DNA of 34,780 nucleotides from a virus: IMG/VR virus record IMGVR_UViG_3300025120_000236, positions 1-34,780 of that record; one strand, given 5' to 3'. A program made the position numbers and the translations under genes. Below, piece by piece: positions 1 to 29,626 of this stretch. How positions within the stretch are numbered: position 1 is the stretch's first letter; each line of letters opens with the position of its first letter. The notes under the pieces are model-generated. The model searched no databases. It saw only the letters and a list, made by a program, of their open reading frames with translations, and was not told the DNA's origin.

Positions 1-13
1 TTATAACGAAAAT

Positions 14-35
14 TTAATAATATGATATTTATTAA
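14..35 (+). promoter_or_regulatory. AT-rich dyad upstream of first gene (candidate late control element)
   Basis: Perfect 7-bp inverted repeat, TTAATAA (14-20) and TTATTAA (29-35), around an 8-nt spacer. It ends 23 nt before the ATG at 59. The 7-8-7 geometry matches dyads before the genes at 11615, 27629 and 29429, but the arm sequence is less similar to theirs. In DNA this AT-rich such dyads also arise by chance, so this copy is weaker than those at 27590 and 29393. Confidence 0.35.
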
Positions 36-58
36 CAAGTAAAGTAACAAGGAAAATT

Positions 59-8430: not shown

Positions 8431-9419
8431 CATTAATTGATTTAACAACACAAGCACAAGCCCCACAATCTGGTGGTTTGACTTTACAAAGTTCAGAAAC
8501 TACAAGTTCTTTAACTGGATTATATACATTAGAGTTTGATAATATTAATGTAGATAATATCGGAACAGGTAGTTTGAATATTGGAACAGTCAATACATTA
8601 ACAGCAGGTAAATTAAAATTAGCTCACCCAACAGACCCAGTTATTATGGATGCTAATGATAATAAAGTAATACAAATTTTAACATCGGGTGTTCCAAGTG
8701 GTAGTATAAAAGTGTTCGGTGATTTAACAGTTGAGGGTTCATCATCATTTAATAATGTTGAAAGATTTACGGTAGAAGACCCAATTTTAGATTTAAATTT
8801 TGTAGGAGATACTGCAGGTTCATCAACAGATTCTGGATTAAGAGTTGGTAGAGCGGGGTTAACAAATGCACAATTATTATTTGACCATAGTGAAACCAGA
8901 TGGGCAATAGACAATACAAGTGGTTCGTTAATAAACCTTGTTGGTATTTCAACAGAAGATATATTAACTAATAAAACAATTACTGGACTAAAAACTTCAA
9001 CAATGGCTAATCAAGCCGACTTAACATTTAGTGGAGACGGAGAAGTATTAGGATTACCAGCTAATCCAAGTGAACAAGGTTCTGGTGTTTCAAAAGCGTA
9101 TGTAAACGCACAATTAACTAGTAGTGTAAGTTCATCAGGAACAGATTATTTAAGAAAGAATTTTGTAAAAGTAGCCGCAGGAATAAGTGGTTCAAATACA
9201 GCAAGTTTTGAAGCAGTAACAGCGTCAGCTCCAACCGGTATGACAGCAACAAGTGAAAATGATTTTATATTCTTTATGAATGGTGGATATATGGAACATA
9301 ACGCTTTAGAAGTAGAACAAAACGGAACATCATTTTTATTAAAAGTTGATGTAAGTAATATGGGATACAATTTAGAATCAGATGATGAAATCATCGCACA
9401 CGGAAAGTTTGATTCATAA
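8427..9419 (+). CDS. Fibre-like structural protein, 330 aa
   Basis: The ATG overlaps the previous stop by four bases. The N-terminal part is Thr/Ser/Gln-rich. Residues about 50-100 are short beta repeats (IGTGSLNIGTVNTL, SIKVFGDLTVEGSS). Residues about 110-170 contain VEDPILDLNFVGD, DSGLRVGRAG and a W-containing strand, a block I associate with T4-like phage fibre proteins from memory. The C-terminal part has another NG module (FIFFMNGGYMEHNALEVEQN ending DEIIAHGKF). No enzymatic motif is seen. It probably links the neck or baseplate to the large fibres encoded next. Confidence 0.65.
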   Translation: MTLIDLTTQAQAPQSGGLTLQSSETTSSLTGLYTLEFDNINVDNIGTGSLNIGTVNTLTAGKLKLAHPTDPVIMDANDNKVIQILTSGVPSGSIKVFGDLTVEGSSSFNNVERFTVEDPILDLNFVGDTAGSSTDSGLRVGRAGLTNAQLLFDHSETRWAIDNTSGSLINLVGISTEDILTNKTITGLKTSTMANQADLTFSGDGEVLGLPANPSEQGSGVSKAYVNAQLTSSVSSSGTDYLRKNFVKVAAGISGSNTASFEAVTASAPTGMTATSENDFIFFMNGGYMEHNALEVEQNGTSFLLKVDVSNMGYNLESDDEIIAHGKFDS

Positions 9420-11530
9420 TGGCCGATTTAAAGAGAAAGCAGTTAAGACAATTTTTATCAGGTTCGTTTAATATAACGGGGTCACTAAATGTAACCGGTT
9501 CAGTTGAGTTTGATAAAAACATTAGTGGTTCAATTACTTCTACTGGTTCGTTTAGTAGATTACAAAGTGATACAATATCAGTAACACATTCACCATATGC
9601 AAGTGGTTCTGGTGTTCAAGCACTTATGGACGCAACTGGTTCTTATGCATCAGCTTCAACAAAATATGTAAAAGAATCTCAAACGGGTTCATTTGGTAGT
9701 GGTTCTGATGTTCAAGGACTTTTAGATACTTATGTAAGACAATCAGAATCAAGTTCTTTTGCAAGTGGTTCAGATTTACAAATTATACTTGCAGAAAGTT
9801 CATCTTATGTGACACAAGACGAAACTAGTAGTTTCGCAAGTGGTTCAGACTTACAAATAATTCAAGCAGAAAGTGCATCATATGTAGTTTCTACAAACAC
9901 AAGTTCTTTCTTACAAAATTCAGATACCGCTTCTTTTTCAACATTAGTTGTTCAAGGTAATATTACAACATCAGGTTCCATTACAGCACAATCGTTTAAT
10001 ACAGAAATTGTTTCATCATCAGTAATATTTGAAAGTGGGTCTACTAGATTTGGTGATACAATTGATGATAAACACGATATAACAGGTTCATTATTTGTAA
10101 GTGGTAATGTTACATTTGATACAAATTTAACTGGTTCTATTACATCAACTGGTTCATTTGGTAATTTGGTTGTTGGTGGTGGAGGTATTTCATCAGAAGG
10201 AGATATTACATTAGAAGCTGACGGAGCAGATGTTATTCTTACAGATGGTGGAACTGAGTTTGGTAGATTAAGTAATGTTTTGGGAGGTTTAACTCTTAAA
10301 TCTGGTGCAAACAATAACGCAATAGTTTTTTCAACAGACTCTAATCCAAAAGCAATTATGGGTGGGGTTATTAGTTCAGCTCATAATATTCAAACAACCG
10401 CAAATGTTAGTGGTGGATTATCATCTACTGGTTCTTTTCATAGATTAGAAAGTGATACGATATCAGTAACGAACTCACCATTTGCTAGTGGTTCAGATTT
10501 ACAAGTTATACTTACAGAGAGTGCTTCATATTTAAATAATGATACTACTTCATCATTTGGTTCAACAACAATCTCATCAAATTTAACAATTGGTGGTGAT
10601 ATAACTAGTTCAATCACTTCAACAGGTTCTTTTGGTAGAGTTGATGTAGCAGAAAATACATTTATACTTGGTAATTTGGGAATTGGAACAAGCACACAAG
10701 GAAATAGACTTCAAGTTGCTGGTGATGCAACTATCGTTGGAGCTCTTGATGTTCTCAATTCAGTAAGTGGTGGGATAAGTTCAACTGGTTCATTTGGATA
10801 TGTGGAAGCACTAGGAGTTAAACTTGTAAATTCAAACCAAACTGCTTCTTTCGCAAGTGGTTCAGACTTACACACAATATTAGCCGAAAGTTCTTCATAT
10901 ATGATGTCAGACCAAACTGGTTCTATGGGAGCAACTTCAATATCTTCAACATTATCAGTAGTTGGAGACATTGCAACATCAGGTTCGGTTATTGCAAAAG
11001 AATTTAAAACAGAATTTGTATCATCGTCTATTATATTCGCATCAGGTTCTCAAATATTTGGTAATTCCGAAGATGACACACACGCATTTAGTGGGTCGGT
11101 AAATATCGGTGATATGGTCTTATCTGGTAGCCGAGTCGGAGTATCTAGTGACTTAGACTTATTAACTCTTTCTACAGACAACCTAACGATAAACGGGGGT
11201 ATTGTTGTAGATGACGGAGCGAATATTGGTGTAGATTCCGATACGAATTTACTAACTTTAAATGACCAAAGTCTTGTTATTAATGGAACATTAGATTCAA
11301 CTGGTAGAATTGATGCACAATCAGGACTTCAAGTATCAGGTTCATCATTACAAGTAGGAAATGATTTAACACTAAACTACACTTCCCCAGTTAGTCATAG
11401 TTTAATGTTTGTAAATTATACAGACAAAACTGTGGATTTACTTCCCGCAGCTTCATCAAGTGGCCAGTTAGCTCAATTCAATGGAACTAGTTGGGTAATT
11501 ACTGATGAAATTGACGGTGGAAGTTTCTAA
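9419..11530 (+). CDS. Repeat-built tail fibre protein, 703 aa
   Basis: Its ATG overlaps the previous stop by one base. The protein is made mostly of two Gly/Ser-rich modules. One is GSITSTGSFGR and its variants (for example residues about 38-48 and 240-250). The other is FASGSDLQIILAESSSYV, found about six times with changes such as DVQGLLDTY. Both also occur in the 2164-aa protein. The C-terminal ~170 residues lose the second module and end in SLMFVNYTDKTVDLLPAAS and GQLAQFNGTSWVITDEIDGG, a tail-fibre-like beta end. No chaperone domain is present. Likely a trimeric beta-structured fibre segment. After its stop come ATAAAAAGTCAA and a small hairpin. Confidence 0.75.
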   Translation: MADLKRKQLRQFLSGSFNITGSLNVTGSVEFDKNISGSITSTGSFSRLQSDTISVTHSPYASGSGVQALMDATGSYASASTKYVKESQTGSFGSGSDVQGLLDTYVRQSESSSFASGSDLQIILAESSSYVTQDETSSFASGSDLQIIQAESASYVVSTNTSSFLQNSDTASFSTLVVQGNITTSGSITAQSFNTEIVSSSVIFESGSTRFGDTIDDKHDITGSLFVSGNVTFDTNLTGSITSTGSFGNLVVGGGGISSEGDITLEADGADVILTDGGTEFGRLSNVLGGLTLKSGANNNAIVFSTDSNPKAIMGGVISSAHNIQTTANVSGGLSSTGSFHRLESDTISVTNSPFASGSDLQVILTESASYLNNDTTSSFGSTTISSNLTIGGDITSSITSTGSFGRVDVAENTFILGNLGIGTSTQGNRLQVAGDATIVGALDVLNSVSGGISSTGSFGYVEALGVKLVNSNQTASFASGSDLHTILAESSSYMMSDQTGSMGATSISSTLSVVGDIATSGSVIAKEFKTEFVSSSIIFASGSQIFGNSEDDTHAFSGSVNIGDMVLSGSRVGVSSDLDLLTLSTDNLTINGGIVVDDGANIGVDSDTNLLTLNDQSLVINGTLDSTGRIDAQSGLQVSGSSLQVGNDLTLNYTSPVSHSLMFVNYTDKTVDLLPAASSSGQLAQFNGTSWVITDEIDGGSF

Positions 11531-11548
11531 ATAAAAAGTCAAACTTTT
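11531..11548 (+). terminator. Small hairpin after the 703-aa fibre gene
   Basis: ATAAAAAGTCAA (11531-11542) directly follows the stop and contains the left arm AAAAGT (11534-11539) of a 6-bp hairpin with ACTTTT (11543-11548). The same 12-mer follows the bS21 gene at 949-960. This weak structure could attenuate read-through or mark an mRNA 3' end before the promoter-like element 8 nt later. Confidence 0.4.
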
Positions 11549-11555
11549 CAACTTT

Positions 11556-11581
11556 CTTATATTTATTAATGACTATAAATA
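11556..11581 (+). promoter_or_regulatory. CTTATATTTATT dyad with T4-type TATAAATA upstream of the giant fibre gene
   Basis: CTTATATTTATT (11556-11567) is part of a 7-8-7 dyad TTATATT (11557-11563) / ACTATAA (11572-11578, one mismatch). The right half also contains TATAAATA (11574-11581), identical to the T4 late promoter -10 sequence. Either half could be the promoter. The ATG is at 11615 and its ribosome site is weak (TAAGTA), so this gene's expression may lean on the leader. Confidence 0.55.
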
Positions 11582-11614
11582 TAGTTAAATTTTATATAAA
11601 ATAAGTAAAACCAT

Positions 11615-14600
11615 ATGGCTCAATCAATTAAATTAAAACGAAGTGCCGTTGTTGGTAAAACACCACAAACATCATCTTTAGAATTAGGTGAGTTAGGGAT
11701 AAATACTACCGATGGTAAAATCTATTTTCATCGCTCAAGTTCGAGTGATGATTCCATTCAAAGCGTCCTAACAACAGACGCAACTATAACTGGTTCACTA
11801 AAATTATCTGGTTCACAACACCTTTCAGGTTCATTAAATGTAATGGACGATTTAACTTATGGTGGTAATTTAACCGCATCATTAGGTTCAACATCATCTT
11901 TTAGTAGATTAATATCAGTAGCTACAGCTTCCATAGGATACTTGGAAGTAACAGGTAGTAATTTCGCAGTATTTGATGCCGAAACTGGTTCATTTGCATC
12001 AGGTTCTGATTTACATCAAATATTGGGTGAAAGTGGTTCTTATTTAGTAGATACCGATACCGGTTCATTAGGATTACTTACACTTGGAAACGATATAACT
12101 GGTTCAATAACTTCAACGGGTTCATTTGGTAAATTGTTTGGTGATGGTGGAAGCTTAACAAATGTTGCAGACCCAGACGCAATTAGTGGTTCTTTTCAAG
12201 GTGGTGGTTCAAATCTAATTAGTGGTTCTATTATTTCAACTGGTTCATTTGGTAAATTGTTTGGTGATGGTGGAAGCTTAACAAATGTTGCAGACCCAAC
12301 AGCAATTAGTGGTTCTTTTCAAGGTGGTGGTTCAAATACTATTAGTGGTTCTTTAATATCAACCGCATCATTTGGAAAATTAGAACTTATAGACACAGTT
12401 CATATTTCACCATTTGCAAGTGGTAGTGATGTTCAGACAATTTCAGACACTTATGCGAGTGGTTCAGATTTACACCAATTCCTTGCAGAAAGTTCAAGTT
12501 ATGTAGTAGAAAGTGAAACTGGTAGTTTCGCAAGTGGAAGTGATGTCCAAACAATTTCAGACACTTATGCAAGTGGAAGTGATGTTCAAGGAATTTTAGA
12601 CACTTATGCGAGTGGTTCAGATTTACATCAAATATTAGCAGAAAGTTCAAGTTATGTATTAGAACAAGAAACTGGTTCTTTTGCAAGTGGTTCAGATTTA
12701 CAACTAATTAAAATAGAAAGTGCATCTTATTTAAACAACGATACTACTTCATCATTTGGTGCAGTAAGTATGGACTCAACATTATTTGTTCAAGGTGATA
12801 TTACTACATCTGGTTCAGTTATTGCACAACAATTCCGAACTGAGTTTGTTTCGGAGTCAATTATATTTGCATCTGGTTCAACAAAATTTGGTGATGATGC
12901 AACTGATAAACATAGATTTAGTGGTTCGATAGAAATAACCGGAAATGTGAGTGGTTCAATTACTTCAACTGGTTCATTTGGAAACTTAAAACTAGCAGAC
13001 TATGGTGGATTACCTTTCGCAAGTGGAAGTGATTTACAACAATTCCTTGCAGAAAGTGCATCATATGTAACTTCAATCTCAACAGGTTCTTTAAATGTAG
13101 TTCTTGGTGAAAGTGCATCTTATTTAGTTAAAGCCGAAACAGCGTCATTAGGAAAAGTAACATTACTAAGTGATATAACAGGTTCAATAGGTTCAACTGG
13201 TTCATTTGGTAAATTATTTGGTGATGGAAGTGATTTAAGTAATTTACCAGAGTCATTTACATCAGACTTAATTAGTGGTTCATTTCAAGGTGGTGGTTCT
13301 ACAAATATTAGTGGTTCAATCACTTCGACAGGTTCATTTGGTAAAATTGATGCAGTTAATAATATTGATTTACCTGACAATGGTAATATTAGATTCGGAA
13401 CTTCTCAAGATATGAATATCGTTCACGATGGAACAGACACATTCATAGATAATTACACTGGTGATTTAACAATAAGACAAAATACAGATGACAAAGATAT
13501 ATTATTTCAATCAGATGATGACTCTGGTGGAGTAAAAACTTATTTACAATTAGACGGAAGTGAAGGAAATGTAAGAATTCCAGATTCAGTAGAACTTAAT
13601 CTTGGAAATGGTCAAGATTTTAGAATAGTGCACGATGGAAGTAATAGTCAAATAAAAAATTATACAGGAACTTTATTTATTTCAAGTTTAGGAACAAATG
13701 GTGATATAATATTTCAAGTAGACCAAGGCGGACAAGACCAACGACTTATGGTTCTTGACGGAAGTAGAGATGCTGTTTCAATAGGAAGAAGAACTGATGC
13801 TGGAAGTCTCGACCCAGGTGATGATAAATTATTAGTAGCAGGTGATGTAGGTGTTACTGGTTCTTTATTTGTATCGAGTTCAATCACCACACAAGGAGAC
13901 ATATTAGGAAACATCAGTAGTTCAGCATCATCAACAAGTTCACTCGGAGCATTAAATCTTCATAATACACTTTCAGTTAGTTCACAAAGCGGTCATCTAA
14001 ATGGAGGCCCAAACAATATACCTTTATTGGTTTCAAGAAATAATTCAAAAACATCAACACTCGCATTAGTTTCGACTGGTTCTGCTGGATATGCAAATTA
14101 TATGCAATTCTTAACATCAGAATTAAATCAAATGGGTTCAATTGGATTCACATTAGGAACAAATAATAAGTTTACTATAACGAGTAATATGCAAAATCAA
14201 GATATGATTTTCCAAGTTCAAGATGCCGCTAACAATCTTAGAGAAGCACTTAGAATTGATTCATCAGCAAACAGAGTTGGTATTTATAATTCATCACCTA
14301 CAAAAGAGTTGGTGGTGTCAGGTGCTATTAGTGCAAGTGGAGATTTATTTATTGATGATATAAACACCACAGGAACTTTTACTAACACTAGTGGAACTTT
14401 AAAAGTATCACAAAGTGTATCAGACGGAGATATAGAAATCTCAGTTAATGATGGTGGAACAACTAAGAAAGCCCTAACCATAGACGGAAGTGATGCCGGT
14501 TCAGTCATACTTGGTAATAATCTTCGTATGGCAGATAATCAAAAAATTAGATTAGGAACTGCTAATGATTTTAATTTATATCACGACGGAACTCATACTT

Positions 14601-17600
14601 ATGTAGAAAATACCACTGGTCACATATTAATGAGAAATCAATCTCACGGAAACAAAATACATTTTGGAACAGAAAATAGTAGTGGTGTTTTGGAATATGT
14701 TTTAAATGTAACAGGAACTCATAGTGTTGGAATTGGAACTAGTATTACAGGTGACGAAAAATTATTAGTAATGGGAGATGTCGGAGTTACTGGTTCACTA
14801 AGTGTATCAAGTTCAATTAAATCAATTACAGGTAATTATACTGGTAATGTTAGTGGAGCATTAGGAAATACTGGTTCTTTCGATAGATTAGAAGGAATCA
14901 CATTAAACGCAACTATCTCACCATTTGCAAGTGGAAGTGATGTTTCACAAATTCAAGCTCAAACTGGTTCATACGCAACTGGTTCTGATTTACATCAATT
15001 CCTTGCAGAAAGTGCATCATACTTGGTAGATGCAGTAACATCTTCAATGGGTGCTACAACAATGAATTCAACATTGTTTGTTCAAGGTAACATTGCAACA
15101 TCTGGTTCAATAACAGCACAAGAATACATTGTTAATTCATCAGTAACAAATACAACACAAAGTTTTTCAAGTGGTTCAACAATATTTGGTGATACACTTG
15201 ACGATACACACAAATTTACTGGTTCAATTGATGTAACCGGTTCAATAACAATACCAACCGGTAGTATTACTGTAGAAGGTGGTGTTGGTGGAACAAACAT
15301 TGCAAGATTTTCAAGAAATGTAGGAACTGCAAGAACCGATATAGATATTCACGCTGGAGGTGGAGACCCACAAATTACATTTACATCACCAACCGCAAGA
15401 AATTATTCAATTGGACAAGACATAAGCACAAATGGTTTTAAAATTTCAGAACACACTGCAGTAGGAACTGATGATAGGTTAACTATTGCCGACAATGGTG
15501 ATATTTCAGTTTCTCAATCATTATTTGTTACATCTGGTGATTTTGAAGTAAAAACAGGAAACATTAGTGGTTCAATCACTTCAACTGGTTCATTTGCTGA
15601 ATTGAGATTACCTACTAATACCAGACTTTACTTTGATGGTGGTAGTCATACTTATATTTCAGAAACTTCTGCAGATATATTAGACTTTTATGCCGGTGGG
15701 TCTCATATGTTAAGACTTGATGAAGGGAATAATATAGTTTCGATACCACAAGATGCCGATGCCGCAACATTTAATATTGGTGCTGGTAATGACTTAGAAA
15801 TGTATGTTGACTCGGGTGGTAGTAATGAAGCAATAATCAGAAGTAAGAATGGTGATTTCAAAATTATGGCACAAGCAACTGATGCTGATATGAGATTTTT
15901 TTGTGATGATGGTTCTGGTGGAGATGACGAATATTTAAGATTAGATGGTGGTGCAACTTCTCTTGATTTCTTTGTAGATGCAAGATTAGCTGCTACAAAG
16001 AAACTTTACTTAGATGGTGGTGGAGATACTTATATACACGAGGGTGGAGCTGATACAGCAGAATGGTATGTTGGTGGAACAAGACTACTTCAATTAGCAG
16101 AAGGTGGAACTAATTATGTCGCTGTTGGAGATGGAACTTACTTAGGTGCTGGTAATGACATTGATTTAAATATGAGGCACGATGGAACTAATACAACTAT
16201 AAGTAATGCTACTGGTAATTTAACAATCACAAATAATGCAAACGACAAAGATATTGCATTACAATCAGATGATGGTAGTGGTGGAGTAACTAATTACATA
16301 TTATTAGATGGTTCAACTACCAAAGTAGAAGTTGCAAAAGACACAAACTTTGCTGGTAATGTTAGTGGTTCAATCACTTCAACTGGTTCATTTGGTAGAG
16401 TTAACTTTGACGGAGTGGATGGACATACCTTTATACAAGAAACAGCAGATGATACATTAAAGATATTTGTTGGTGGTGAAGCCAAAATGGAGTTTGCTGA
16501 AGGTAGTGAAAACATCTTTATGCAAGCTAACAATTATAATTTTAGAGATGCATCTTTTAATAGTTCTTTCAAGATAGAAGCAAATAATCATCTTTTAAGT
16601 GGTTCATTAACTTCAACTGGTTCGTTTGGTAGAATAGTTGTCCCAACAGGCGGAAATATAGGCCCTTCATTTGATTTTTCATCAGGTGGGACATTAACTG
16701 TTCAATCACACGGTGTAGTGAATTGGGATGCTGGAGATTTTAGGGTTTACGGAAAAGCCGGTAAAAAATTACAATTAGGTTCAATGAATACTCCCGGAGT
16801 ATTGACAATATCTTCAAGTCATGCGGACACAATGGTGATATCCGGAAGTAATGTTGGGATAGGAACAGCAACGCCCACACAAGACTTAACAATTTTTGAA
16901 GATTCAGGAGATAGTAATGTATTAATATCTTCTGCAAATGGTGCTTCACAAATATTCTTTGGAGATGATGAAGATGATAATATAGGTATTATTAGATACG
17001 ACCACGGTAGTAACTTTATGAGATTTACTACTAACACTGGTACAGCAATGGTAATAGATAGTTCTCAAAATATCGGAATAGGAACTTCAAACCCGAGTGC
17101 ATCATTACACATATTTGACTCTGATGGATTATTAGGAAGAGCACCTGAGACTCAAGCTCAAGATTTAATAATAGAGTCAGATGGTAATGCCGGTATATCT
17201 ATTATTTCAGGTAAAGGTAGTATAGAAAAAGGAAGTTTAGTGTTTGGACACGACGACGATTCATTCGCCGCTGGATTAATTTATAATGCACACGGAGACC
17301 AATTATCATTACAAACTCAACAAGCCTCCAACACAATAAGAATAGCAACTGGTAATAATGATGAAAGTTTTATATTTTCTGGATATAATATTAGTGGTTC
17401 AATAACTTCAACCGGTTCATTTGGTAGAGTTCATACACCTGGAACAATTAAATCAGACACAAGATTAGAAATAGGAAGTAATTCAAACTTCTTAACAGAC
17501 CAATTAAAAGTTTCAGACGGAACAAGAGATATTAGATTAAATGCAAATCACGGGTCACAAGCAGTTGTCGGTACGGTAGGAGCACACGATTTCAGTATAA

Positions 17601-18109
17601 TTACTGGTAATGCAATTAGAGCAACTATTGATGGTTCTGACGGAGGAGTTCAAATATCTGGTTCAATACTTCCATTTGCTGATAATGTAGTTGATTTAGG
17701 TTCTGCAAGTAAAAGGTGGAATGATGTATTTGCAGTTCAAACAACGATTGGAGCTTTATTTGAAACAGGATTAAGAAGTAAAGGAATCGGTAAAGAAGAA
17801 ACAGGAACAATAGTAGTATGGAGAAATGGTGGATTAGTTCCTTGTGATAAGTCAGAAGATGTAATGGTAATGGGTGTTATTAAGGAAGGAAAAGACGAAC
17901 CTATTGTAATGGGAGCGGAACCAGTATTAGTAACGGGTGATGTAAAAGAGGGTGACTTTATTACTACATCAACTAAACAAGGCCACGGTAAAAAATTAGA
18001 AAATGGATATTTATTAAAGAAAGAAATGTTTGGTAAAGTTATAGCACAAGCGTTAGAAGACTCATCAGGTGAGTCAAGTTTAATTAAATGTATGATTAGG
18101 AAAATGTAA
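11615..18109 (+). CDS. Giant repeat-built tail fibre protein, 2164 aa
   Basis: The N-terminal 45 residues (SIKLKRSAVVGKTPQ, SLELGELGINTTDGKIYF) are the attachment motif found at the start of many tail fibre proteins. Residues about 50-600 mix GSITSTGSFGK and ASGSDLHQFLAESSSYV modules. From about 600 on there are longer units: a receptor-like core such as DFNLYHDGTHTYVENTTG, then DKDI, SDDGSGG and a closing DGS. The last ~140 residues form a distinct domain with VDLGSASKRWNDVFA, TIVVWRNGGLVPCD, PVLVTGDVKEGDFITTS and a final SLIKCMIRKM. This resembles the GD-LLTTS-PG-AMK C-terminal domain of large adhesins and Peptidase_G2-type fibre ends (from memory). No S74 dyad is seen. The stop is 2 nt before the next ATG. 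Confidence 0.85.
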   Translation: MAQSIKLKRSAVVGKTPQTSSLELGELGINTTDGKIYFHRSSSSDDSIQSVLTTDATITGSLKLSGSQHLSGSLNVMDDLTYGGNLTASLGSTSSFSRLISVATASIGYLEVTGSNFAVFDAETGSFASGSDLHQILGESGSYLVDTDTGSLGLLTLGNDITGSITSTGSFGKLFGDGGSLTNVADPDAISGSFQGGGSNLISGSIISTGSFGKLFGDGGSLTNVADPTAISGSFQGGGSNTISGSLISTASFGKLELIDTVHISPFASGSDVQTISDTYASGSDLHQFLAESSSYVVESETGSFASGSDVQTISDTYASGSDVQGILDTYASGSDLHQILAESSSYVLEQETGSFASGSDLQLIKIESASYLNNDTTSSFGAVSMDSTLFVQGDITTSGSVIAQQFRTEFVSESIIFASGSTKFGDDATDKHRFSGSIEITGNVSGSITSTGSFGNLKLADYGGLPFASGSDLQQFLAESASYVTSISTGSLNVVLGESASYLVKAETASLGKVTLLSDITGSIGSTGSFGKLFGDGSDLSNLPESFTSDLISGSFQGGGSTNISGSITSTGSFGKIDAVNNIDLPDNGNIRFGTSQDMNIVHDGTDTFIDNYTGDLTIRQNTDDKDILFQSDDDSGGVKTYLQLDGSEGNVRIPDSVELNLGNGQDFRIVHDGSNSQIKNYTGTLFISSLGTNGDIIFQVDQGGQDQRLMVLDGSRDAVSIGRRTDAGSLDPGDDKLLVAGDVGVTGSLFVSSSITTQGDILGNISSSASSTSSLGALNLHNTLSVSSQSGHLNGGPNNIPLLVSRNNSKTSTLALVSTGSAGYANYMQFLTSELNQMGSIGFTLGTNNKFTITSNMQNQDMIFQVQDAANNLREALRIDSSANRVGIYNSSPTKELVVSGAISASGDLFIDDINTTGTFTNTSGTLKVSQSVSDGDIEISVNDGGTTKKALTIDGSDAGSVILGNNLRMADNQKIRLGTANDFNLYHDGTHTYVENTTGHILMRNQSHGNKIHFGTENSSGVLEYVLNVTGTHSVGIGTSITGDEKLLVMGDVGVTGSLSVSSSIKSITGNYTGNVSGALGNTGSFDRLEGITLNATISPFASGSDVSQIQAQTGSYATGSDLHQFLAESASYLVDAVTSSMGATTMNSTLFVQGNIATSGSITAQEYIVNSSVTNTTQSFSSGSTIFGDTLDDTHKFTGSIDVTGSITIPTGSITVEGGVGGTNIARFSRNVGTARTDIDIHAGGGDPQITFTSPTARNYSIGQDISTNGFKISEHTAVGTDDRLTIADNGDISVSQSLFVTSGDFEVKTGNISGSITSTGSFAELRLPTNTRLYFDGGSHTYISETSADILDFYAGGSHMLRLDEGNNIVSIPQDADAATFNIGAGNDLEMYVDSGGSNEAIIRSKNGDFKIMAQATDADMRFFCDDGSGGDDEYLRLDGGATSLDFFVDARLAATKKLYLDGGGDTYIHEGGADTAEWYVGGTRLLQLAEGGTNYVAVGDGTYLGAGNDIDLNMRHDGTNTTISNATGNLTITNNANDKDIALQSDDGSGGVTNYILLDGSTTKVEVAKDTNFAGNVSGSITSTGSFGRVNFDGVDGHTFIQETADDTLKIFVGGEAKMEFAEGSENIFMQANNYNFRDASFNSSFKIEANNHLLSGSLTSTGSFGRIVVPTGGNIGPSFDFSSGGTLTVQSHGVVNWDAGDFRVYGKAGKKLQLGSMNTPGVLTISSSHADTMVISGSNVGIGTATPTQDLTIFEDSGDSNVLISSANGASQIFFGDDEDDNIGIIRYDHGSNFMRFTTNTGTAMVIDSSQNIGIGTSNPSASLHIFDSDGLLGRAPETQAQDLIIESDGNAGISIISGKGSIEKGSLVFGHDDDSFAAGLIYNAHGDQLSLQTQQASNTIRIATGNNDESFIFSGYNISGSITSTGSFGRVHTPGTIKSDTRLEIGSNSNFLTDQLKVSDGTRDIRLNANHGSQAVVGTVGAHDFSIITGNAIRATIDGSDGGVQISGSILPFADNVVDLGSASKRWNDVFAVQTTIGALFETGLRSKGIGKEETGTIVVWRNGGLVPCDKSEDVMVMGVIKEGKDEPIVMGAEPVLVTGDVKEGDFITTSTKQGHGKKLENGYLLKKEMFGKVIAQALEDSSGESSLIKCMIRKM
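12119..12214 (+). repeat. 96-nt direct repeat, copy 1
   Basis: Matches 12242-12337 at 93 of 96 positions. The three differences are adjacent and turn one GAC (Asp) codon into ACA (Thr). It encodes GSFGKLFGDGGSLTNVADP followed by AISGSFQGGGSN. Confidence 0.9.
12242..12337 (+). repeat. 96-nt direct repeat, copy 2
   Basis: Second copy of the unit at 12119-12214, with a 123-nt period. Near-identity at synonymous positions indicates recent duplication or gene conversion inside the fibre gene. Confidence 0.9.
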
Positions 18110-18111
18110 AA

Positions 18112-21100
18112 ATGTCTAAAATTAAATTAACAGGAACAGCAGTAAGTAGTTCGTTAACTTCAACTGGTTCATTCGGTAGAGTCGATATTGGTAATGCAGA
18201 TTTTAGTGGTGATATAAATATGACTGGAACTGGTGTTCACACAATAAGCACTTCTAATGATGTTCCATTTAGAGTTAAATCTACTGACGGAACAGCTGCA
18301 ATTTCAATAGCAGATAATTCTTCAGGTGCAGAAACCCACAATAGAATCCAAGTGGTTGGTGATGTAATGCAACTTATTGCTGCTAACAAATCACTGGCAA
18401 ATTTGTATACAAATTCTTTTACCATTAACGAAGATAGTAATGACATTGATTTTAGAGTAGAAGCTAATGATGATGCAAACGCATTTAAAATAGATGCCGC
18501 TACAAATAAAATAATGATTGGAACAAATGTAGTTGGAGACGAAAAATTTAAAGTAGCAGGAAATGTTGGAATAACAGGTTCACTGCATGTATCAGGAAAT
18601 ATTACCACATCTGGTTCAATTATAGCAAAAGAATTTAGAACTGAATTTGTAAATCAAATTATTGCAACTTCATCTGGTTCTACACAATTTGGTGATTCCA
18701 TTGATGATGTTCACCACTTTACAGGTTCATTATTAGTAAGTGGTAATATTAATTTGCCTGATAGTGTTCAAGCAAATTTTGGAAATAGAAGTGGTGGTGA
18801 TATGCAAATATACCACGATGGCAGTAATAATTATATCAATGCAAGTGAAGGACATTTAATATTAGAACAAAATGAAAATGACCACGATATAATTCTAAAA
18901 TCAGATAATGGTTCAGGTGGAACAACTGCTTACCTAACATTAGATGGTAGCACCAAAAATATTAACATAGATGTAACTACAAGAATTACAAAAGATGTTG
19001 GAGATGGTGGAATCTTTTATATGGGAGCAGATAGTGATTTAGCATTATATGTAACTGGTGACCACGCAGTCTTTAGAAATTATACATCAGATGGAGATAT
19101 TTATCTTTCAGTTAATGATAGTGGGTCAGCAGTCAATGCTGTTCAAATAGATGCAAGTGATGCTGGAACTGCAATCTTTAATCACGATGTTCACATAAAG
19201 GACAATGGTAAACTAAAAGTTGGAACTGGTAATGATTTAGAAATGTATCACGATGGAAGTAATAGTTATTTTTATAATGAAACAGGTAATTTCCAAATCT
19301 TTAACAAAGCCAATGACAAAGATATTATATTATCTTCAGATGATGGTAGTGGTGGTACTACTGCATACTTAACAATAGATGGTAGTTCAAGAAATATTAA
19401 TGTAGATATAGCAAGTTATATGGATATAAAATCAGCAGATGATGGTGAAGGTGGAATTACACTTAGTAAATCTGCAACTGATGGCACTCATACTAAATAT
19501 TCTATATCACATAGAGATGATAACCAAAGTTTAATTATTTATTCTCACGATGGCACAACATTTAGAAACTGGTTTACTGCAGATGAACCAAATGCTTTAT
19601 TAAAATTAGGTAGTAATAGTTCAGCATTATCTCAATTTGATAATGATGGAGATTTCTTTCCTTTTAGACATATTGATATGGGAGATGGAGATAGAATCAA
19701 ACTTGGAGATTCTGATGATTTACAAATAGTTCACGATAGTAATATTAATTTTATACACTCTACTATTAGTGATAGAGATATTTATTTTAGAGTCAATGAT
19801 GGTGGTTCAAGTGTTGATGCTATAATTATAGATGCAAGTGATGTAGGAGCTGTCAAACTTCCTAACGATAATCAATATTTATACATTGGTGCTGGTAACG
19901 ATATTTATTTTGGACACGGCGGTACTAATTCAGTTTGGGGAAATAATACTGGAACTTTACAAATAAGAAATCACACTGCTGATGCAGATATGTTTTTATC
20001 GGTTAATGATGGTGGAAGTCATATTAATGCTATTCAAATAGATGCAAGTGATGTAGGTAGTGTTATTTTACCTTCCGATAATCAAAAATTAAAGATTGGA
20101 GCAAGTAATGATTTACAAATATATCACGATGGTAGTAACAACTATATAAACAATGTAACATCAGACCAAGACTTCTATATTAAAGTGAATGATGGTGGTT
20201 CAAGTATTAATGCTCTTCAAATAGATGCAAGTGCAGTAGGTAAAGTTAAATTACCAAATGATAATCAAAGATTAACGATTGGTGCTAGTGATGATTTACA
20301 TTTATTTCACGACGGAAGTGATACTGGAATTGAAAACTATGTCGGTGATTTATACATAACAAATAATGCAGATGATAAAGATATTGTTTTAAGAAGTGAT
20401 AATGGTAGTGGTGGAGTAACACCTTACATAACATTAGACGGAAGCTCAGGAATGACTTTAATTACAGGTGGTGGAGCATTAAAAATTGATGTAACTGCAG
20501 ACCAATCGGTATTATTTAACAGAGATGGTGGTAGTCCAGTTAGTATAGAACACGATACTTCTCAATTATATTTTTATAACAGAACACAAAATAAATCTAC
20601 TCTTATGTTCAAACACGCAGGACCTGTTGTTATTAATGAAGATTCAAGTCCTTTAGTAGATTTTAGAATAGAAACTGATGCACAAAGTCACGCTTTATTT
20701 ACAAATTCTAGTGATAATACAGTTGGAATATTCGCAGCTTCCTCCGGTTTATCTGGTTCATTAGTGGTGGGTGGTGGAACTGGAACACCTGGTGGAATTA
20801 TGATATCACACCAAAACAAAGTAGGAACATCACAACCTTCTACGGTTGAACAACATCCAGTAGGACACTATACAACTGGTGAAGAAATATTTTCAATAGA
20901 CCAAACTTGGTCAGATTCAAATTTAGCTAAATGGTTTGGAGATAATGCTAAAGATGATGTATACTTTACAGCATCAGCTGATGCTCCTGGTGGATACGCA
21001 ATTAGAATTGATGGACAAGTGAGTGTTGGTGGTGAATATAATTCAGGATTTCCTTATATTCCAATAAGAGACGGTGATGTTTATTATATGGAATGTTGGA

Positions 21101-23346
21101 TACAGAATGTAGGTGATAATCAAACACACTATATGGGTTCAAATGAGTATGACCAAAACTTTGCTTCTACTGGTGGTAATCCAGGTTCTTATGGTTATTG
21201 GGTAATGTCAAACACAAATACAGGAACTGGTCAATGGATAAAACAAACTGGATACATTTCAGGTTCTTCCATTTCAACAACGGGAACTTTTGAAACAAGT
21301 TCTAGGTATTTTACACCAATGGCCTTATTTAATTATGGTGCAGGTAGTGGAACAAGGTCTTGCGTAATCTCTGGGTGGAAAGTTGTAAAAATGAACAATA
21401 GTGGAAATCAAATATTTGATAATATGTTGGTTAGTGGTTCTATTGCACTTGGTAATAAATCAAACACAAATGTAACTGGTGGTCTTGGATTAGATGCATC
21501 CGGTTCAGCCAAAGACGCAAATCACCCGTGGCACGGAAGAACAAGAATTGGAAGTCCAGAAACTTTGCAGCTAGCTCCAGCACACGGTATGGGAATAAAA
21601 ACACCACACGGATATGTATTACACGGCCCAAGAAATTCAAGTTGGAATCACATTATAACAGATAGAAATGGTAATTATTTCAATACAAAATTAACGGTAG
21701 ATGGTGGTATTGTTGAATCGTATGATGAAGCTTTACAACTACGAAGATATCAAAGTAATAATAATAGAATTACAATTGATGACGGAAGACAAGTATTTGA
21801 AATGGAAGGTAGAGCTGTTTTAAATATGAACGCTTCAACCACAACTGGTTGGGTAGGAATTAGTGGTTCAGTAGATATCTCTGGTTCAATAACATCAAAC
21901 GGTAGTGCACCAATGTTAAATGTTGGAGAAACTGGAGCTGGTGCAATCGCAGGTTCAGCTCATCAACTGATGGTTGGAGGCCCAAGTGTTTCGGGATATA
22001 CAGGAATACAAATCGTTTCAGATGCAACAGATGGAAAAGGAGTTCTTTCTTTCGCAGATGGTAGAGGAGCAAATGATAATTGGAGAGGATTCATAGAATA
22101 CGACCACGGTTCAGATATACTTAACTTTGCAACTAATGCTGTAACAAGATATACAATGAACAATGCTGGATGTTTATATGTTTCTGATAAAGTTCAAGCT
22201 GGTGGTAATGGTATAGAAATTTGGGATGGAACTCACGGATTTAAACAAGTATTAGGAAAAGATAGCACTTATACATTTTTAAAAAATAATGATGGTGTTA
22301 GTAATATCTATCTTGGAGATAGTGGAGATGCACAAAACTATTACGACAATGGTGTGCATATATTTAGAAGTTCAGGTGGAGGAGCAGAATATGCAAGAAT
22401 TGGTTCAGGATATATTCGTTCAGCAGGTTTAGGTTCAGATGGAGCTCCAGCATTTAGTTTTACAGGAGATACCGATACTGGTATACTTAGTCCAGGAGCT
22501 AACAATATAGCACTTTCAACAGCAGGAACAAGAAGATATTTAATAGATGCTTCAGGTAATCATAGTATTTATGGTAATACTTCATTTAGTTCCCCAATGT
22601 CAGTTAATTATGGAGCAATATTTAATGAAGGTAGTCACGATTCAGATTTTAGAGTAGAGTCTAATGCTAATACTCATATGTTTCTTGTTGATGCTGGAAA
22701 TAATAGAATTGGTATAAATGTTAGTGCGCCTGCAAAAGATTTACATATATTTCAAACTGAAGGTGCAGTTGGTGCAAAACACTCTACACTTAGATTAGGT
22801 GGATATTCTACAACTGGTTGTGATATATCATCTTTCAGAGATACAGGTAATAGTAACGACCAAGGTTTATTCATTTCAGTTTATAATGCTACAAATGCTC
22901 AATTAGATGCCATAAGAATAGATAGTTTAGCAAATATCCAAGTAACTGGTAGTGATGGAACTAAATTTATGCTATCACAAAGTGGAGATTTCCACGCAGA
23001 CGGAGATGTTATAGCCGCTTCAACACAAGTTGGTTCTGATATAAGATTAAAAGACGAAGTTGAAGATTTGAATTATGGGTTAGATGAAGTATTAAAATTA
23101 AGACCAGTAGAATTTGATTGGAAAACACGAAGAGGTGGAAGACACGATATTGGTGTGATTGCACAAGAAATAGAATCAATAATTCCAGAAGTTGTTACTG
23201 ATTCAAAAGACATAAGAGATGATTTACCTTATAAATCAGTAGATTATTCAAAATTAACAGCGGTATTGATTAAAGCTGTTCAAGAACAACAAGAACAAAT
23301 AGAAGAATTAAAAGAAGATATCAATGAATTACGGGGAGATGACTAA
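18112..23346 (+). CDS. Tail fibre protein with peptidase S74 self-cleaving chaperone, 1744 aa
   Basis: It begins with one SSLTSTGSFGR module. About eight beta units follow, containing DLQIYHDGSNNYINN, DKDI, DDGSGG or VNDGGS and QIDASDVG. Residues about 915-1105 interrupt the repeats with an aromatic-rich insert (APGGYAIRIDGQ, DGDVYYMECWIQN, YFTPMALFNYG, ISGWKVVK) that looks like a jelly-roll carbohydrate-binding module. The C-terminus is an S74 intramolecular chaperone: GSDIRLKDEV, HDIGVIAQEIESIIPEVV, VDYSKLTAVLIKAVQEQQEQ and a coiled-coil end. Ser1642 and Lys1647 have the Ser+5 Lys spacing of the endosialidase catalytic dyad. Cleavage before Ser1642 would release a 103-residue chaperone after trimer folding. 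Probably the host-contacting fibre. Confidence 0.87.
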   Translation: MSKIKLTGTAVSSSLTSTGSFGRVDIGNADFSGDINMTGTGVHTISTSNDVPFRVKSTDGTAAISIADNSSGAETHNRIQVVGDVMQLIAANKSLANLYTNSFTINEDSNDIDFRVEANDDANAFKIDAATNKIMIGTNVVGDEKFKVAGNVGITGSLHVSGNITTSGSIIAKEFRTEFVNQIIATSSGSTQFGDSIDDVHHFTGSLLVSGNINLPDSVQANFGNRSGGDMQIYHDGSNNYINASEGHLILEQNENDHDIILKSDNGSGGTTAYLTLDGSTKNINIDVTTRITKDVGDGGIFYMGADSDLALYVTGDHAVFRNYTSDGDIYLSVNDSGSAVNAVQIDASDAGTAIFNHDVHIKDNGKLKVGTGNDLEMYHDGSNSYFYNETGNFQIFNKANDKDIILSSDDGSGGTTAYLTIDGSSRNINVDIASYMDIKSADDGEGGITLSKSATDGTHTKYSISHRDDNQSLIIYSHDGTTFRNWFTADEPNALLKLGSNSSALSQFDNDGDFFPFRHIDMGDGDRIKLGDSDDLQIVHDSNINFIHSTISDRDIYFRVNDGGSSVDAIIIDASDVGAVKLPNDNQYLYIGAGNDIYFGHGGTNSVWGNNTGTLQIRNHTADADMFLSVNDGGSHINAIQIDASDVGSVILPSDNQKLKIGASNDLQIYHDGSNNYINNVTSDQDFYIKVNDGGSSINALQIDASAVGKVKLPNDNQRLTIGASDDLHLFHDGSDTGIENYVGDLYITNNADDKDIVLRSDNGSGGVTPYITLDGSSGMTLITGGGALKIDVTADQSVLFNRDGGSPVSIEHDTSQLYFYNRTQNKSTLMFKHAGPVVINEDSSPLVDFRIETDAQSHALFTNSSDNTVGIFAASSGLSGSLVVGGGTGTPGGIMISHQNKVGTSQPSTVEQHPVGHYTTGEEIFSIDQTWSDSNLAKWFGDNAKDDVYFTASADAPGGYAIRIDGQVSVGGEYNSGFPYIPIRDGDVYYMECWIQNVGDNQTHYMGSNEYDQNFASTGGNPGSYGYWVMSNTNTGTGQWIKQTGYISGSSISTTGTFETSSRYFTPMALFNYGAGSGTRSCVISGWKVVKMNNSGNQIFDNMLVSGSIALGNKSNTNVTGGLGLDASGSAKDANHPWHGRTRIGSPETLQLAPAHGMGIKTPHGYVLHGPRNSSWNHIITDRNGNYFNTKLTVDGGIVESYDEALQLRRYQSNNNRITIDDGRQVFEMEGRAVLNMNASTTTGWVGISGSVDISGSITSNGSAPMLNVGETGAGAIAGSAHQLMVGGPSVSGYTGIQIVSDATDGKGVLSFADGRGANDNWRGFIEYDHGSDILNFATNAVTRYTMNNAGCLYVSDKVQAGGNGIEIWDGTHGFKQVLGKDSTYTFLKNNDGVSNIYLGDSGDAQNYYDNGVHIFRSSGGGAEYARIGSGYIRSAGLGSDGAPAFSFTGDTDTGILSPGANNIALSTAGTRRYLIDASGNHSIYGNTSFSSPMSVNYGAIFNEGSHDSDFRVESNANTHMFLVDAGNNRIGINVSAPAKDLHIFQTEGAVGAKHSTLRLGGYSTTGCDISSFRDTGNSNDQGLFISVYNATNAQLDAIRIDSLANIQVTGSDGTKFMLSQSGDFHADGDVIAASTQVGSDIRLKDEVEDLNYGLDEVLKLRPVEFDWKTRRGGRHDIGVIAQEIESIIPEVVTDSKDIRDDLPYKSVDYSKLTAVLIKAVQEQQEQIEELKEDINELRGDD

Positions 23347-27628: not shown

Positions 27629-28117
27629 ATGGCTAAAGTATTAGACCCAAGTGAAATAATGTTTACACCCTTTGAACCTAAAACTAAAAATAGGTTTATT
27701 ATGTATATTGAAGGTATACCAGCCTTTACTATCAAAGCAATGAATAGACCAACTATTCAATTTGATGAAGTGGTGTTAGAACATATAAATGTTAAAAGGT
27801 ATGTAAAAGGTAAAGGTGCATGGCAACCATTAGAAATTACATTGTATGACCCAATCGTTCCTTCCGCTTCACAAGCAGTTATGGAATGGGTGAGAGAACA
27901 TCACGAGTCAGTTACAGGTCGTCAAGGTTATTCAGACTTTTACAAAAAAGATATCACATTTAACCTATTAGGTCCTGTTGGGGACATTGTTGAAGAATGG
28001 ACTCTTAAAGGAACATTTATTCAAAGTGCTAATTTTGGAGATATGGACTACGGAACATCAGACCCAGTTGAAATAGCATTAACACTTCAATACGACTACG
28101 CAATATTACAATTTTAA
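27629..28117 (+). CDS. 19: Tail tube protein, gp19-like
   Basis: A 162-aa protein, the same size as T4 gp19 (163 aa). The T4_gp19/tube family pattern is clear: NRFIMYIEGIPAFTIKAMNR, a VVLEHINVKRYVKGKGAWQP strand pair, ITLYDPIVPSASQAVMEWV, YKKDITFNLLGPVGDIVEEW, and the C-terminal GDMDYGTSDPVEIALTLQYD with an aromatic end. It stacks as hexamers to form the inner tube. It directly follows the sheath gene, as in T4, but under its own terminator and promoter-like dyad, which would let tube and sheath levels differ. Confidence 0.95.
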   Translation: MAKVLDPSEIMFTPFEPKTKNRFIMYIEGIPAFTIKAMNRPTIQFDEVVLEHINVKRYVKGKGAWQPLEITLYDPIVPSASQAVMEWVREHHESVTGRQGYSDFYKKDITFNLLGPVGDIVEEWTLKGTFIQSANFGDMDYGTSDPVEIALTLQYDYAILQF

Positions 28118-28138: not shown

Positions 28139-28366
28139 ATGGGATTTAGTGAAATATTTAAAGATAAAAATGAATACAACGAAAAATCAATAATTGGTTT
28201 TATGTCTTTCGCAGTAATGACAATAACAAGTATCGTTGATATGGTTACTGGTGCGTTTGGAAACGAATTAGTAATACAAGAATTCATTTACAATTCATTC
28301 GTTGTTATCACATTAGGTTGTTTCGGTATCGCAGGTGCTGAAAAAATCTTTGGTGGTAAAAAATAA
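28139..28366 (+). CDS. Small two-helix membrane protein, 75 aa (holin-like candidate)
   Basis: Two hydrophobic segments, about residues 18-40 (IIGFMSFAVMTITSIVDMV) and 48-68 (FIYNSFVVITLGCFGIAG). A charged N-terminus (KDKNEYNEK) precedes them and a basic tail (GGKK) follows. The ATG at 28139 has AAGGAG upstream. The layout and length fit a small class II holin or another phage inner-membrane protein, but no endolysin lies in the window and its position is between the tube gene and tail assembly genes. A tail-tip or membrane-contact role cannot be excluded. The call rests only on topology. Confidence 0.55.
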   Translation: MGFSEIFKDKNEYNEKSIIGFMSFAVMTITSIVDMVTGAFGNELVIQEFIYNSFVVITLGCFGIAGAEKIFGGKK

Positions 28367-28406: not shown

Positions 28407-29180
28407 ATGACAGAAACAAAGTTTCCTACGGAAATCGTAGATTTGCCGTCAACAGGACACTTTTACCCAGAAGATAATCCATTATCATCTGGTAAAATAG
28501 AACTAAGATATATGACTGCTCGTGATGAAGACATTCTCACATCAGTTAATTTAATTGAACAAGGAAAAGCGTTAGACAAACTTTTACAAGAATTAATAAT
28601 CAACAAAGATATTGATTATAATGATTTATTAGTTGGTGATAAGAACGCTATATTTGTTGCAGCAAGAATACTAGCATATGGTAAAGAATTTGGTTTTTCA
28701 TATTTAGATTCGTATGGTGAGAGAGTAGACGGAAAAGTAGACTTGACAGAAATAGAATCAAAAGAATTAGATTTTTCAGAATATAAAAAAGGTGTAAATT
28801 TATTTTCTTATACTTTACCAAAATCAGAAAGAATAGTAACATTTTCTATCCCTACACACAAATCAGAAATGGATGTAGAAGGTGAATTAGAAGCTATAAA
28901 GAAAGTATTTAAAGATGATATAAATGCAGTCAACAGAGAAAATTCAACAAGACTAAAACATCTTATAAAGTCAGTAGATGGAAAACAAGAAAAAGCATAT
29001 ATTAATAACTTTGTTGATACTGAATTCTTTTCAGTCGATTCAAATGCGTTCAGAAAATATGTTTCAGAAAAAAATCCCAACCTAGACTTCACAGCAACCT
29101 CAGAGAATAGTAGAGGTGAAAAGGAGAAGGTGGCAGTCCCTATGACTGCTAAGTTTTTTTGGCCTGACTCCACAATATAA
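28407..29180 (+). CDS. Tail assembly chaperone / gp26-type baseplate protein, zero-frame product
   Basis: A 257-aa protein starting at an ATG after AAGGAG. The N-terminal domain has VDLPSTGHFYPED, a GKIELRYMTARDEDILTS strand-helix and LDKLLQELII, the pattern LPS.G..Y...L..G.v.lr.mt..dE..L seen in T4-like gp26/tail-assembly-chaperone proteins. Residues about 75-150 continue the alpha/beta domain (FVAARILAYG, SYGERVDGKVDL), and residues 160-210 are a charged helix. It ends FWPDSTI straight after a T7 run. Position between tube and tape-measure genes is where many contractile and siphophage tails encode a frameshifted chaperone pair; see the extension 29161-29376. The chaperone reading is context plus shape; gp26 homology is from memory. 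Confidence 0.7.
   Translation: MTETKFPTEIVDLPSTGHFYPEDNPLSSGKIELRYMTARDEDILTSVNLIEQGKALDKLLQELIINKDIDYNDLLVGDKNAIFVAARILAYGKEFGFSYLDSYGERVDGKVDLTEIESKELDFSEYKKGVNLFSYTLPKSERIVTFSIPTHKSEMDVEGELEAIKKVFKDDINAVNRENSTRLKHLIKSVDGKQEKAYINNFVDTEFFSVDSNAFRKYVSEKNPNLDFTATSENSRGEKEKVAVPMTAKFFWPDSTI
29154..29160 (+). other. T7 slippery run, candidate programmed +1 frameshift site
   Basis: AAG TTT TTT TGG in the zero frame (29151-29162). Skipping one T after the second Phe codon continues as GGC CTG ACT CCA CAA TAT into a 71-codon open frame with no usable start of its own. A +1 shift (or -2) gives a 322-aa product. Zero-frame stop is TAA at 29178-29180. Confidence 0.6.
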
Positions 29181-29376
29181 AACGGACTTACACGAACAAA
29201 TATTCCAAATTATCTTTTATTCTAAAGGTGGTTTCACATTTACAGAAGTTTATGACTTACCTGTATATCTTCGTAGATTTTATTATAAACGACTTGTTAC
29301 TCAATATGAAAAAGAAAAACAAGAACACGATAAAGTTGTGAACCAACCAAACCAATCTAATCAACGATTTAAGTAG
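29161..29376 (+). CDS. Frameshift-dependent C-terminal extension of the tail assembly chaperone
   Basis: Seventy-one codons, open from GGC at 29161 to TAG at 29374-29376, reading GLTPQYKTDLHEQIFQIIFY, SKGGFTFTEVYDLPVYLRRF, YYKRLVTQYEKEKQEHDK and a Gln/Asn tail. Codon use matches the neighbours and the helix pattern is protein-like. The frame has no ATG, GTG or TTG before its final residues, and it opens only at 29146 (CTG), inside the previous gene. It is therefore best read as an extension made by +1 shifting on the T7 run. The FGLTPQY ... VYDLPVYLRRFYY motif resembles the C-terminal part of equivalent single-frame proteins in related phages (from memory). A sequencing indel is the main alternative. 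Confidence 0.65.
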   Translation, partial: GLTPQYKTDLHEQIFQIIFYSKGGFTFTEVYDLPVYLRRFYYKRLVTQYEKEKQEHDKVVNQPNQSNQRFK

Positions 29377-29428: not shown

Positions 29429-29626
29429 ATGGCTAAATATAAAAAAATAACGGAACAATCCAAACAAGGTCTTTTAGACAAATTGTTTTACTATCTTGGT
29501 AGAGGTATGAGACCTACTATGGTTAAAAAACTAGCTAAGAAAGACCCAGAGTTTGCTAAAACTTGGAGTGAACTCGAAAAACATCAGAAATATATGGATA
29601 GTATTTTTACGAATAGAAAAAAATAG
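29429..29626 (+). CDS. Small basic protein of unknown function, 65 aa
   Basis: A lysine-rich helical protein (KYKKITEQSKQGLLDKLFYY, GRGMRPTMVKKLAKKDPEF, WSELEKHQKY, ending NRKK). The start ATG has AAGGAT upstream and a dyad element just before it. No membrane segment and no recognised family. Its place between the assembly chaperone and the tape measure suggests a helper in tail initiation, or a small structural protein; that is inference. Confidence 0.6.
   Translation: MAKYKKITEQSKQGLLDKLFYYLGRGMRPTMVKKLAKKDPEFAKTWSELEKHQKYMDSIFTNRKK

Follow-up and report, generated by a model that had tools for sequence, protein, structure and literature searches.

Probable +1 ribosomal frameshifting in the tail assembly chaperone gene of a T4-like aquatic phage lineage, with -1-frame extensions in related groups

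Vladimirov and coworkers are said to have described in 2022 that frameshifting is kept in the tail assembly chaperone (TAC) genes of several T4-like groups, and that T4 has two genes. The assignment of gp26 and gp51 as the tail assembly chaperones of T4-like phages is a proposal of Vladimirov, Gautam, and Davidson (2022), as cited in PMC10885494 and PMC12846349. T4 gp26 has long been discussed as a hub protein (PMC3004832), and the signal of T4-like phages has been described as a poly-T -1 site (PMC12846349). Shine-Dalgarno (SD) stimulators of +1 shifts are known to have a spacing of 3 nt, those of -1 shifts one of 9-14 nt (PMC5009743); in a 70S system, +1 frameshifting is enhanced and -1 frameshifting dampened by a hairpin placed directly upstream of the slip site (PMC6321510). 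It is already known that tail chaperones may be frameshifted, also in T4-like phages, and that some tail chaperones use +1 shifts, and as the TAC role has been published for T4-like phages, the kind of gene described here is known as well. The limited literature searched yielded no +1 shift in a large T4-like lineage, no opposite shift direction at a homologous site, and no natural arrangement of SD plus 5' hairpin.

The DNA analysed here, called the window, is the whole of virus record IMGVR_UViG_3300025120_000236 (34,780 bases) and belongs to a T4-like aquatic virus of bacteria. As judged from its sequence and that of its relatives, a tail assembly chaperone gene of this virus is very probably decoded by programmed +1 ribosomal frameshifting, with possible stimulation by a hairpin and an SD-like tract. 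The gene is situated between a tail tube gene and a presumed tape-measure gene (Table 1). This order had been claimed in an earlier note on the sequence and is correct; the direct adjacency that it implied is not, because a 75-aa hydrophobic ORF (28139-28366) separates the tube gene from the TAC gene, and a 65-aa ORF (29429-29626) lies between the latter and the presumed tape-measure gene. Neither ORF belongs to a known family. Pfam and PHROG gave no meaningful match for the presumed tape-measure gene of the window; in Flavobacterium phage immuto, the annotated tail tape measure gene comes after the TAC gene.

Table 1. Features in and around the chaperone gene of the window.
Feature	Position	Strand	Remarks
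Tail tube protein, presumed TAC-C target	27629..28117	+	E 2e-28 to phrog_4542 (tail tube)
TAC-N (257 aa, 0-frame), short form of the gp26-like chaperone	28407..29180	+	PF12322, phrog_150; stop TAA 29178-29180
Shine-Dalgarno-like AAGGAG	29121..29126	+	27 nt upstream of slip run
5' RNA hairpin, 8 bp	29131..29151	+	Loop 29139-29143; ends 2 nt before slip run
T7 slip run	29154..29160	+	Site variants TTTTTTT, TTTCTTT, TTCTTTT, then GG/AC
TAC-C, +1-frame extension	29161..29376	+	GGC..AAG (71 codons), then stop TAG
Presumed tape-measure gene and putative chaperone client, 460 aa	29686..31068	+	Assigned by position only

The 257-aa ORF ends in AAG TTT TTT TGG CCT GAC TCC ACA ATA TAA, just after the T7 run. 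The +1 frame is open from 29146 to 29373, with its stop at 29374-29376, and contains no ATG, GTG, or TTG between its preceding stop and the end of codon 15 past the site. Skipping one base joins both frames into a protein of exactly 322 aa (TAC-NC) with the junction ...KFFGLTPQY..., and after a -1 slip, TGA would be reached in a few codons. The window contains TTTTTTTGGCC once, vs 0.05 occurrences expected. The earlier note had read the end of the short protein, the start-less +1 frame with its 71 codons, and the 322-aa fusion in the same way. Elsewhere in the window, three very long Ser/Gly-rich tail-fibre-like ORFs (703, 2164, and 1744 aa; 9419-23346) carry repeated motifs, and the end of the last one resembles, by eye, a self-cleaving chaperone domain. 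A 378-aa ORF (1100-2236) has acidic repeats of the EDEAEHMED type, and the adjoining 538-aa ORF probably encodes, again by eye, the major capsid protein.

The short ORF matches PF12322 (E 2e-10) and phrog_150 (baseplate hub, E 5e-10), so that the gp26-type N-terminus ascribed to it earlier is borne out; the relation between gp26/gp51 and chaperones had already been proposed by Vladimirov et al. (2022), as cited above. Both T4 gp26 and T4 gp51 match PF12322, and gp51 has an additional C-terminal part fused in frame. The two products of the window seem to correspond to a short and a long tail assembly chaperone, with gp26 and gp51 as T4 equivalents. TAC-Ns of the lineage with a +1-frame extension and of groups with a -1-frame extension (see below) align with an E value of 1.7e-10, and their TAC-Cs with an E value of 2e-6 in hhalign. 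The -1-frame TAC-C in turn matches phrog_634, the family of the C-terminal part of T4 gp51, with an E value of 5e-30; in direct comparison of the +1 TAC-C with phrog_634, only 4 of 46 members match (best E 0.03), and hhalign runs directly against single T4 sequences gave no useful signal. By the alignments between the two lineages, TAC-N and TAC-C are each homologous to their counterparts in -1 T4-like phages. An AF2 model of TAC-N (pLDDT 93.5) has the HK97 tail assembly chaperone 2OB9 as top structural neighbour (VIA-align Z 4.5, 4.0 A, 97/104 residues), a match below the level proving a shared fold (Foldseek E 2). A sequence search of the PDB found no match. The chaperone function is one that we infer from homology and gene position.

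Relatives were sampled from viral contigs and named phages; a first IMG/VR scan gave 33 relatives, and two profile scans, in each of which 80 loci were kept, were drawn from the best 600 matches listed. At least 187 loci, the window included, have the same site class and the same +1 relation, and nine phage records, named or uncultured, match. In this set of at least 187 loci, 178 extensions are complete, all of them 62-107 codons long, the third frame stays open for a median of 3 codons, and the 0-frame stop follows 15-24 nt after the first T. The +1 relation is also found in Flavobacterium phage immuto, Microcystis phage Mel-JY01, Streptococcus phage vB_SagM-GXN1, Listeria phage LIS04, and the huge phage LR756508, some of the named phages having diverged sites. 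Such a dual-frame layout is far from chance. The extension has a median dN/dS of 0.16, and 61% of its differences fall on codon position 3, a pattern that indicates purifying selection on the extension. One locus (L018:3145) has an internal frame break early in TAC-N, probably an assembly error, and its slip site is intact.

Sites of the window lineage read TTTTTTT, TTTCTTT, or TTCTTTT, followed by GG or AC, and their variation bears on how the frames are joined. The combination of a U_UUU_UUC heptamer with a -1-frame extension, by which T4-like -1 TACs are recognized, is absent from the window, whose extension lies in the +1 frame, and a -1 reading of the lineage was rejected, the third frame closing at once. 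A -2 ribosomal frameshift as established in phage Mu (PMC5009743) would reach the same frame with one extra residue (KFFFGLT), and at the window's own T7 site its pairing is as good as that of a +1 shift. Re-pairing of the Mu type is perfect at T7 sites (UUU onto UUU) and tolerable at TTTCTTT (CUU onto UUC), but it would need UUU onto UCU at TTCTTTT sites (L137, L141, and L212) and at L037, and CUA onto UUC at L036, and all of these loci retain the frame relation. Only a +1 slip re-pairs acceptably across all window-lineage variants, with UUU or CUU moving onto UUU (YUU_U; UUU-Y or CUU-U). An upstream hairpin, moreover, is expected to push the ribosome forward, not back (PMC6321510). The pairing pattern favours +1 over -2 for the window lineage, and we regard a -2 shift as unlikely; for the "+1 (or -2)" of the earlier note, the balance lies with the first member, the second being mispaired at the sites named. 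RNA polymerase might also slip on the T7 run, yielding mixed mRNAs of which a fraction reads through, and T7 runs in an AT-rich genome can indeed be slippery. Since TTTCTTT and TTCTTTT are devoid of a long homopolymer, transcriptional slippage is not the shared mechanism: together with TTTCTATTC and TTTCGT, these sites have T runs of just 3-4 with an unchanged frame relation, and the conserved SD-like tract and hairpin suit translation. We therefore give slippage very little credence.

An equally slight probability attaches to the extension being a separate gene that starts inside the overlap, perhaps at a non-standard codon near the SD-like tract. The strength of this tract, a CTG at 29146 in the +1 frame of the window, and the separate overlapping ORF in the annotation of Mel-JY01 would fit such a gene. 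However, 90 of the 187 loci are without ATG, GTG, or TTG between the upstream +1 stop and codon 15, no start is conserved, several relatives have CCG in place of the CTG, and T4 gp51 has the equivalent C-terminal part fused in a single frame. The comparison of homologues that had been suggested in the earlier note thus shows relatives that keep the T run or a variant of it along with the +1 relation, and nowhere is the extension an independent gene with a conserved start. Finally, errors are common in homopolymer runs, and with a run shorter by one T both frames would merge, so that a sequencing or assembly error, or a decayed gene, with a true T6 run and a single-frame protein could be imagined. 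This is the least credible of all readings and is refuted for the lineage, because the site class and frame relation recur in at least 187 loci, some of them in complete named phages and some with no homopolymer at the site. Programmed +1 ribosomal frameshifting is the reading that we retain.

Two elements upstream of the slip run accompany the +1 sites; both were missed in the earlier interpretation, which was sound with regard to a programmed +1 shift. An SD-like tract is located mostly 22-29 nt, about 26 nt, upstream of the run in 78 non-redundant +1 sites, with a mean best anti-SD energy of -8.9 vs -5.35 +/- 0.20 kcal/mol for the synonymous-codon null. Between this tract and the slip run, abutting the slip site, lies a hairpin that reaches -10.7 kcal/mol (z -2.7) in the window and averages -5.52 vs -2.89 +/- 0.14 for the synonymous null in 118 non-redundant sites. 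The excess over the synonymous-codon nulls amounts to about 19 sd for the 5' hairpin and about 17 sd for the SD-like tract. Covariation in the window's register, scored over 52 sites chosen by protein motif, is above that of every shuffle (49 double-changed cells vs 14.5 after shuffling). Both elements are present in 71 of the 118 sites; the SD-like tract stands alone in 33 and the hairpin in 6. The remaining 8 +1 sites, in which neither element is strong, are L056, L072, L055, L171, L163, L161, L170, and L169. RNAalifold found no consensus on the 52 aligned sites because the hairpin uses several registers. Rfam gave no match, and downstream structure in the +1 lineage (+8..48) does not exceed shuffles (Z -0.28). 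In a longer fold of the window (29112-29175), the purine tract pairs with the U7 run around the hairpin, and a stem may therefore mask the slip site itself in free mRNA. Base-pairing between these two stretches was rejected as a selected feature, since it would favour A over G, and GAGGAG/AAGGAG is kept instead.

The extension lies in the -1 frame in T4-like phages of Synechococcus, Prochlorococcus, Aeromonas, Vibrio, Rhizobium, Agrobacterium, and Pseudomonas. As the earlier note had supposed, a +1 shift is out of the ordinary among T4-like tails: -1 is used by the other groups of this kind that were examined. Their site is mostly U_UUU_UUC or a close variant, and A_AUU_UUC in Ackermannviridae. 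A further scan of cyanophage contigs (L215-L294) assigned -1 to 79 of 79 scored loci. This cyanophage lineage has an SD-like GAGGG about 10 nt upstream of its site and a strong 3' hairpin (Z -2.1), and no 5' hairpin beyond its synonymous null. Its signals would thus be the mirror image of those of the +1 lineage, and by the known spacing rules (PMC5009743), the -1 lineage is a textbook case and the +1 lineage is not. The arrangement in the +1 lineage fits, by analogy, the reported effect of upstream hairpins (PMC6321510). In the TAC-N alignment, the Phe-Phe of the slip site is aligned between the +1 and -1 lineages, and a quick TAC-N tree, in which long branches were flagged, separates a -1/T4 group from a +1 group with 100% SH-aLRT. 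The -1 phage LR756511 falls inside the +1 side near the base, and three label changes suffice. Opposite slips at the same spot in relatives suggest that the shift direction was switched in evolution, seemingly together with the surrounding RNA signals. LR756511 itself (L039, 3640-3960) is a huge phage of the +1 clade by TAC-N with a U_UUU_UUC site, a -1-frame TAC-C, and a much longer overlap, possibly a direction reversal or an intermediate. In the annotated cyanophages L120, L125, and L132, the -1 TAC-C is entered as a "baseplate hub assembly catalyst" of its own, with a start placed after the slip site. In L130, L131, and L127 (Ackermannviridae and Vibrio phage K469), the sites are A_AUU_UUC or CUUUUUG and the overlaps TAATG, so that restart could compete with -1 shifting there.

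The sequences support dual-frame coding, selection on the extension, conservation of the slip site, and the presence of the SD-like tract and the abutting hairpin in this lineage. Most ribosomes would stop at 29178 and release the 257-aa TAC-N (gpG/gp26-like), and a minority would slip one base forward on UUU_U (29157-29160) with UGG in the A site; UUU at 29154 would be an equivalent alternative slip position. Peptidyl-tRNA-Phe would re-pair at +1, the A-site codon in the lineage presumably being UGG or UAC. Slipped ribosomes would go on to make the 322-aa TAC-NC (gpGT/gp51-like), whose C-terminal domain may recruit the tail tube protein to the chaperone-coated tape-measure protein. The hairpin might refold behind the ribosome and, together with the SD-like tract, bias it forward; the ratio of short to long product is a presumption of this scheme. 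We see about an even chance that a naturally evolved two-part 5' stimulator, consisting of an SD-like tract about 26 nt upstream and a refolding hairpin, pushes the ribosome forward on YUU_UGG, and that sister lineages use an SD at 10 nt and a 3' hairpin for a -1 shift at the same Phe-Phe codons.

Homologous chaperone genes with opposite shifts at the same codons, and with a separate set of RNA signals for either direction, would constitute a natural experiment on frameshift direction. The tail-chaperone scheme can be extended to hundreds of aquatic phages in whose annotation the second product is absent or cut short, and +1 shifting would be a third solution within it, besides -1 shifting and the two genes (26 and 51) of T4. 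With the T4-like TACs (gp26/gp51), the window shares the family (PF12322/phrog_150), the location before the presumed tape-measure gene, and the predicted scheme of a short and a long product; it differs in direction, as the window lineage combines a probable +1 shift with a 5' hairpin, whereas the cyanophages and other T4-like groups checked use -1 and T4 uses two genes. The shift of lambda gpG/gpGT is likewise -1, unlike the predicted +1 here. A probable +1 shift in a myovirus tail chaperone is known from halovirus HSTV-2 (PMC5009743), which is an archaeal virus, unlike the window. RF2 (prfB) has in common with the scheme proposed for the window lineage a +1 slip of YUU_U in the P site to UUU and an SD-like stimulator, but its A site is UGA and its SD spacing 3 nt, whereas the window lineage has a sense codon (UGG/UAC) and an SD-like tract at about 26 nt with a hairpin in between. 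In synthetic upstream-hairpin +1 stimulators (PMC6321510) and in the 5' stem-loop of T4 gene 60 (PMC5009743), an exit-side hairpin favours forward movement, as it would here; those cases are reporters or a 50-nt bypass, whereas the hairpin described here appears to occur naturally, and to be conserved, in a chaperone gene of phages.
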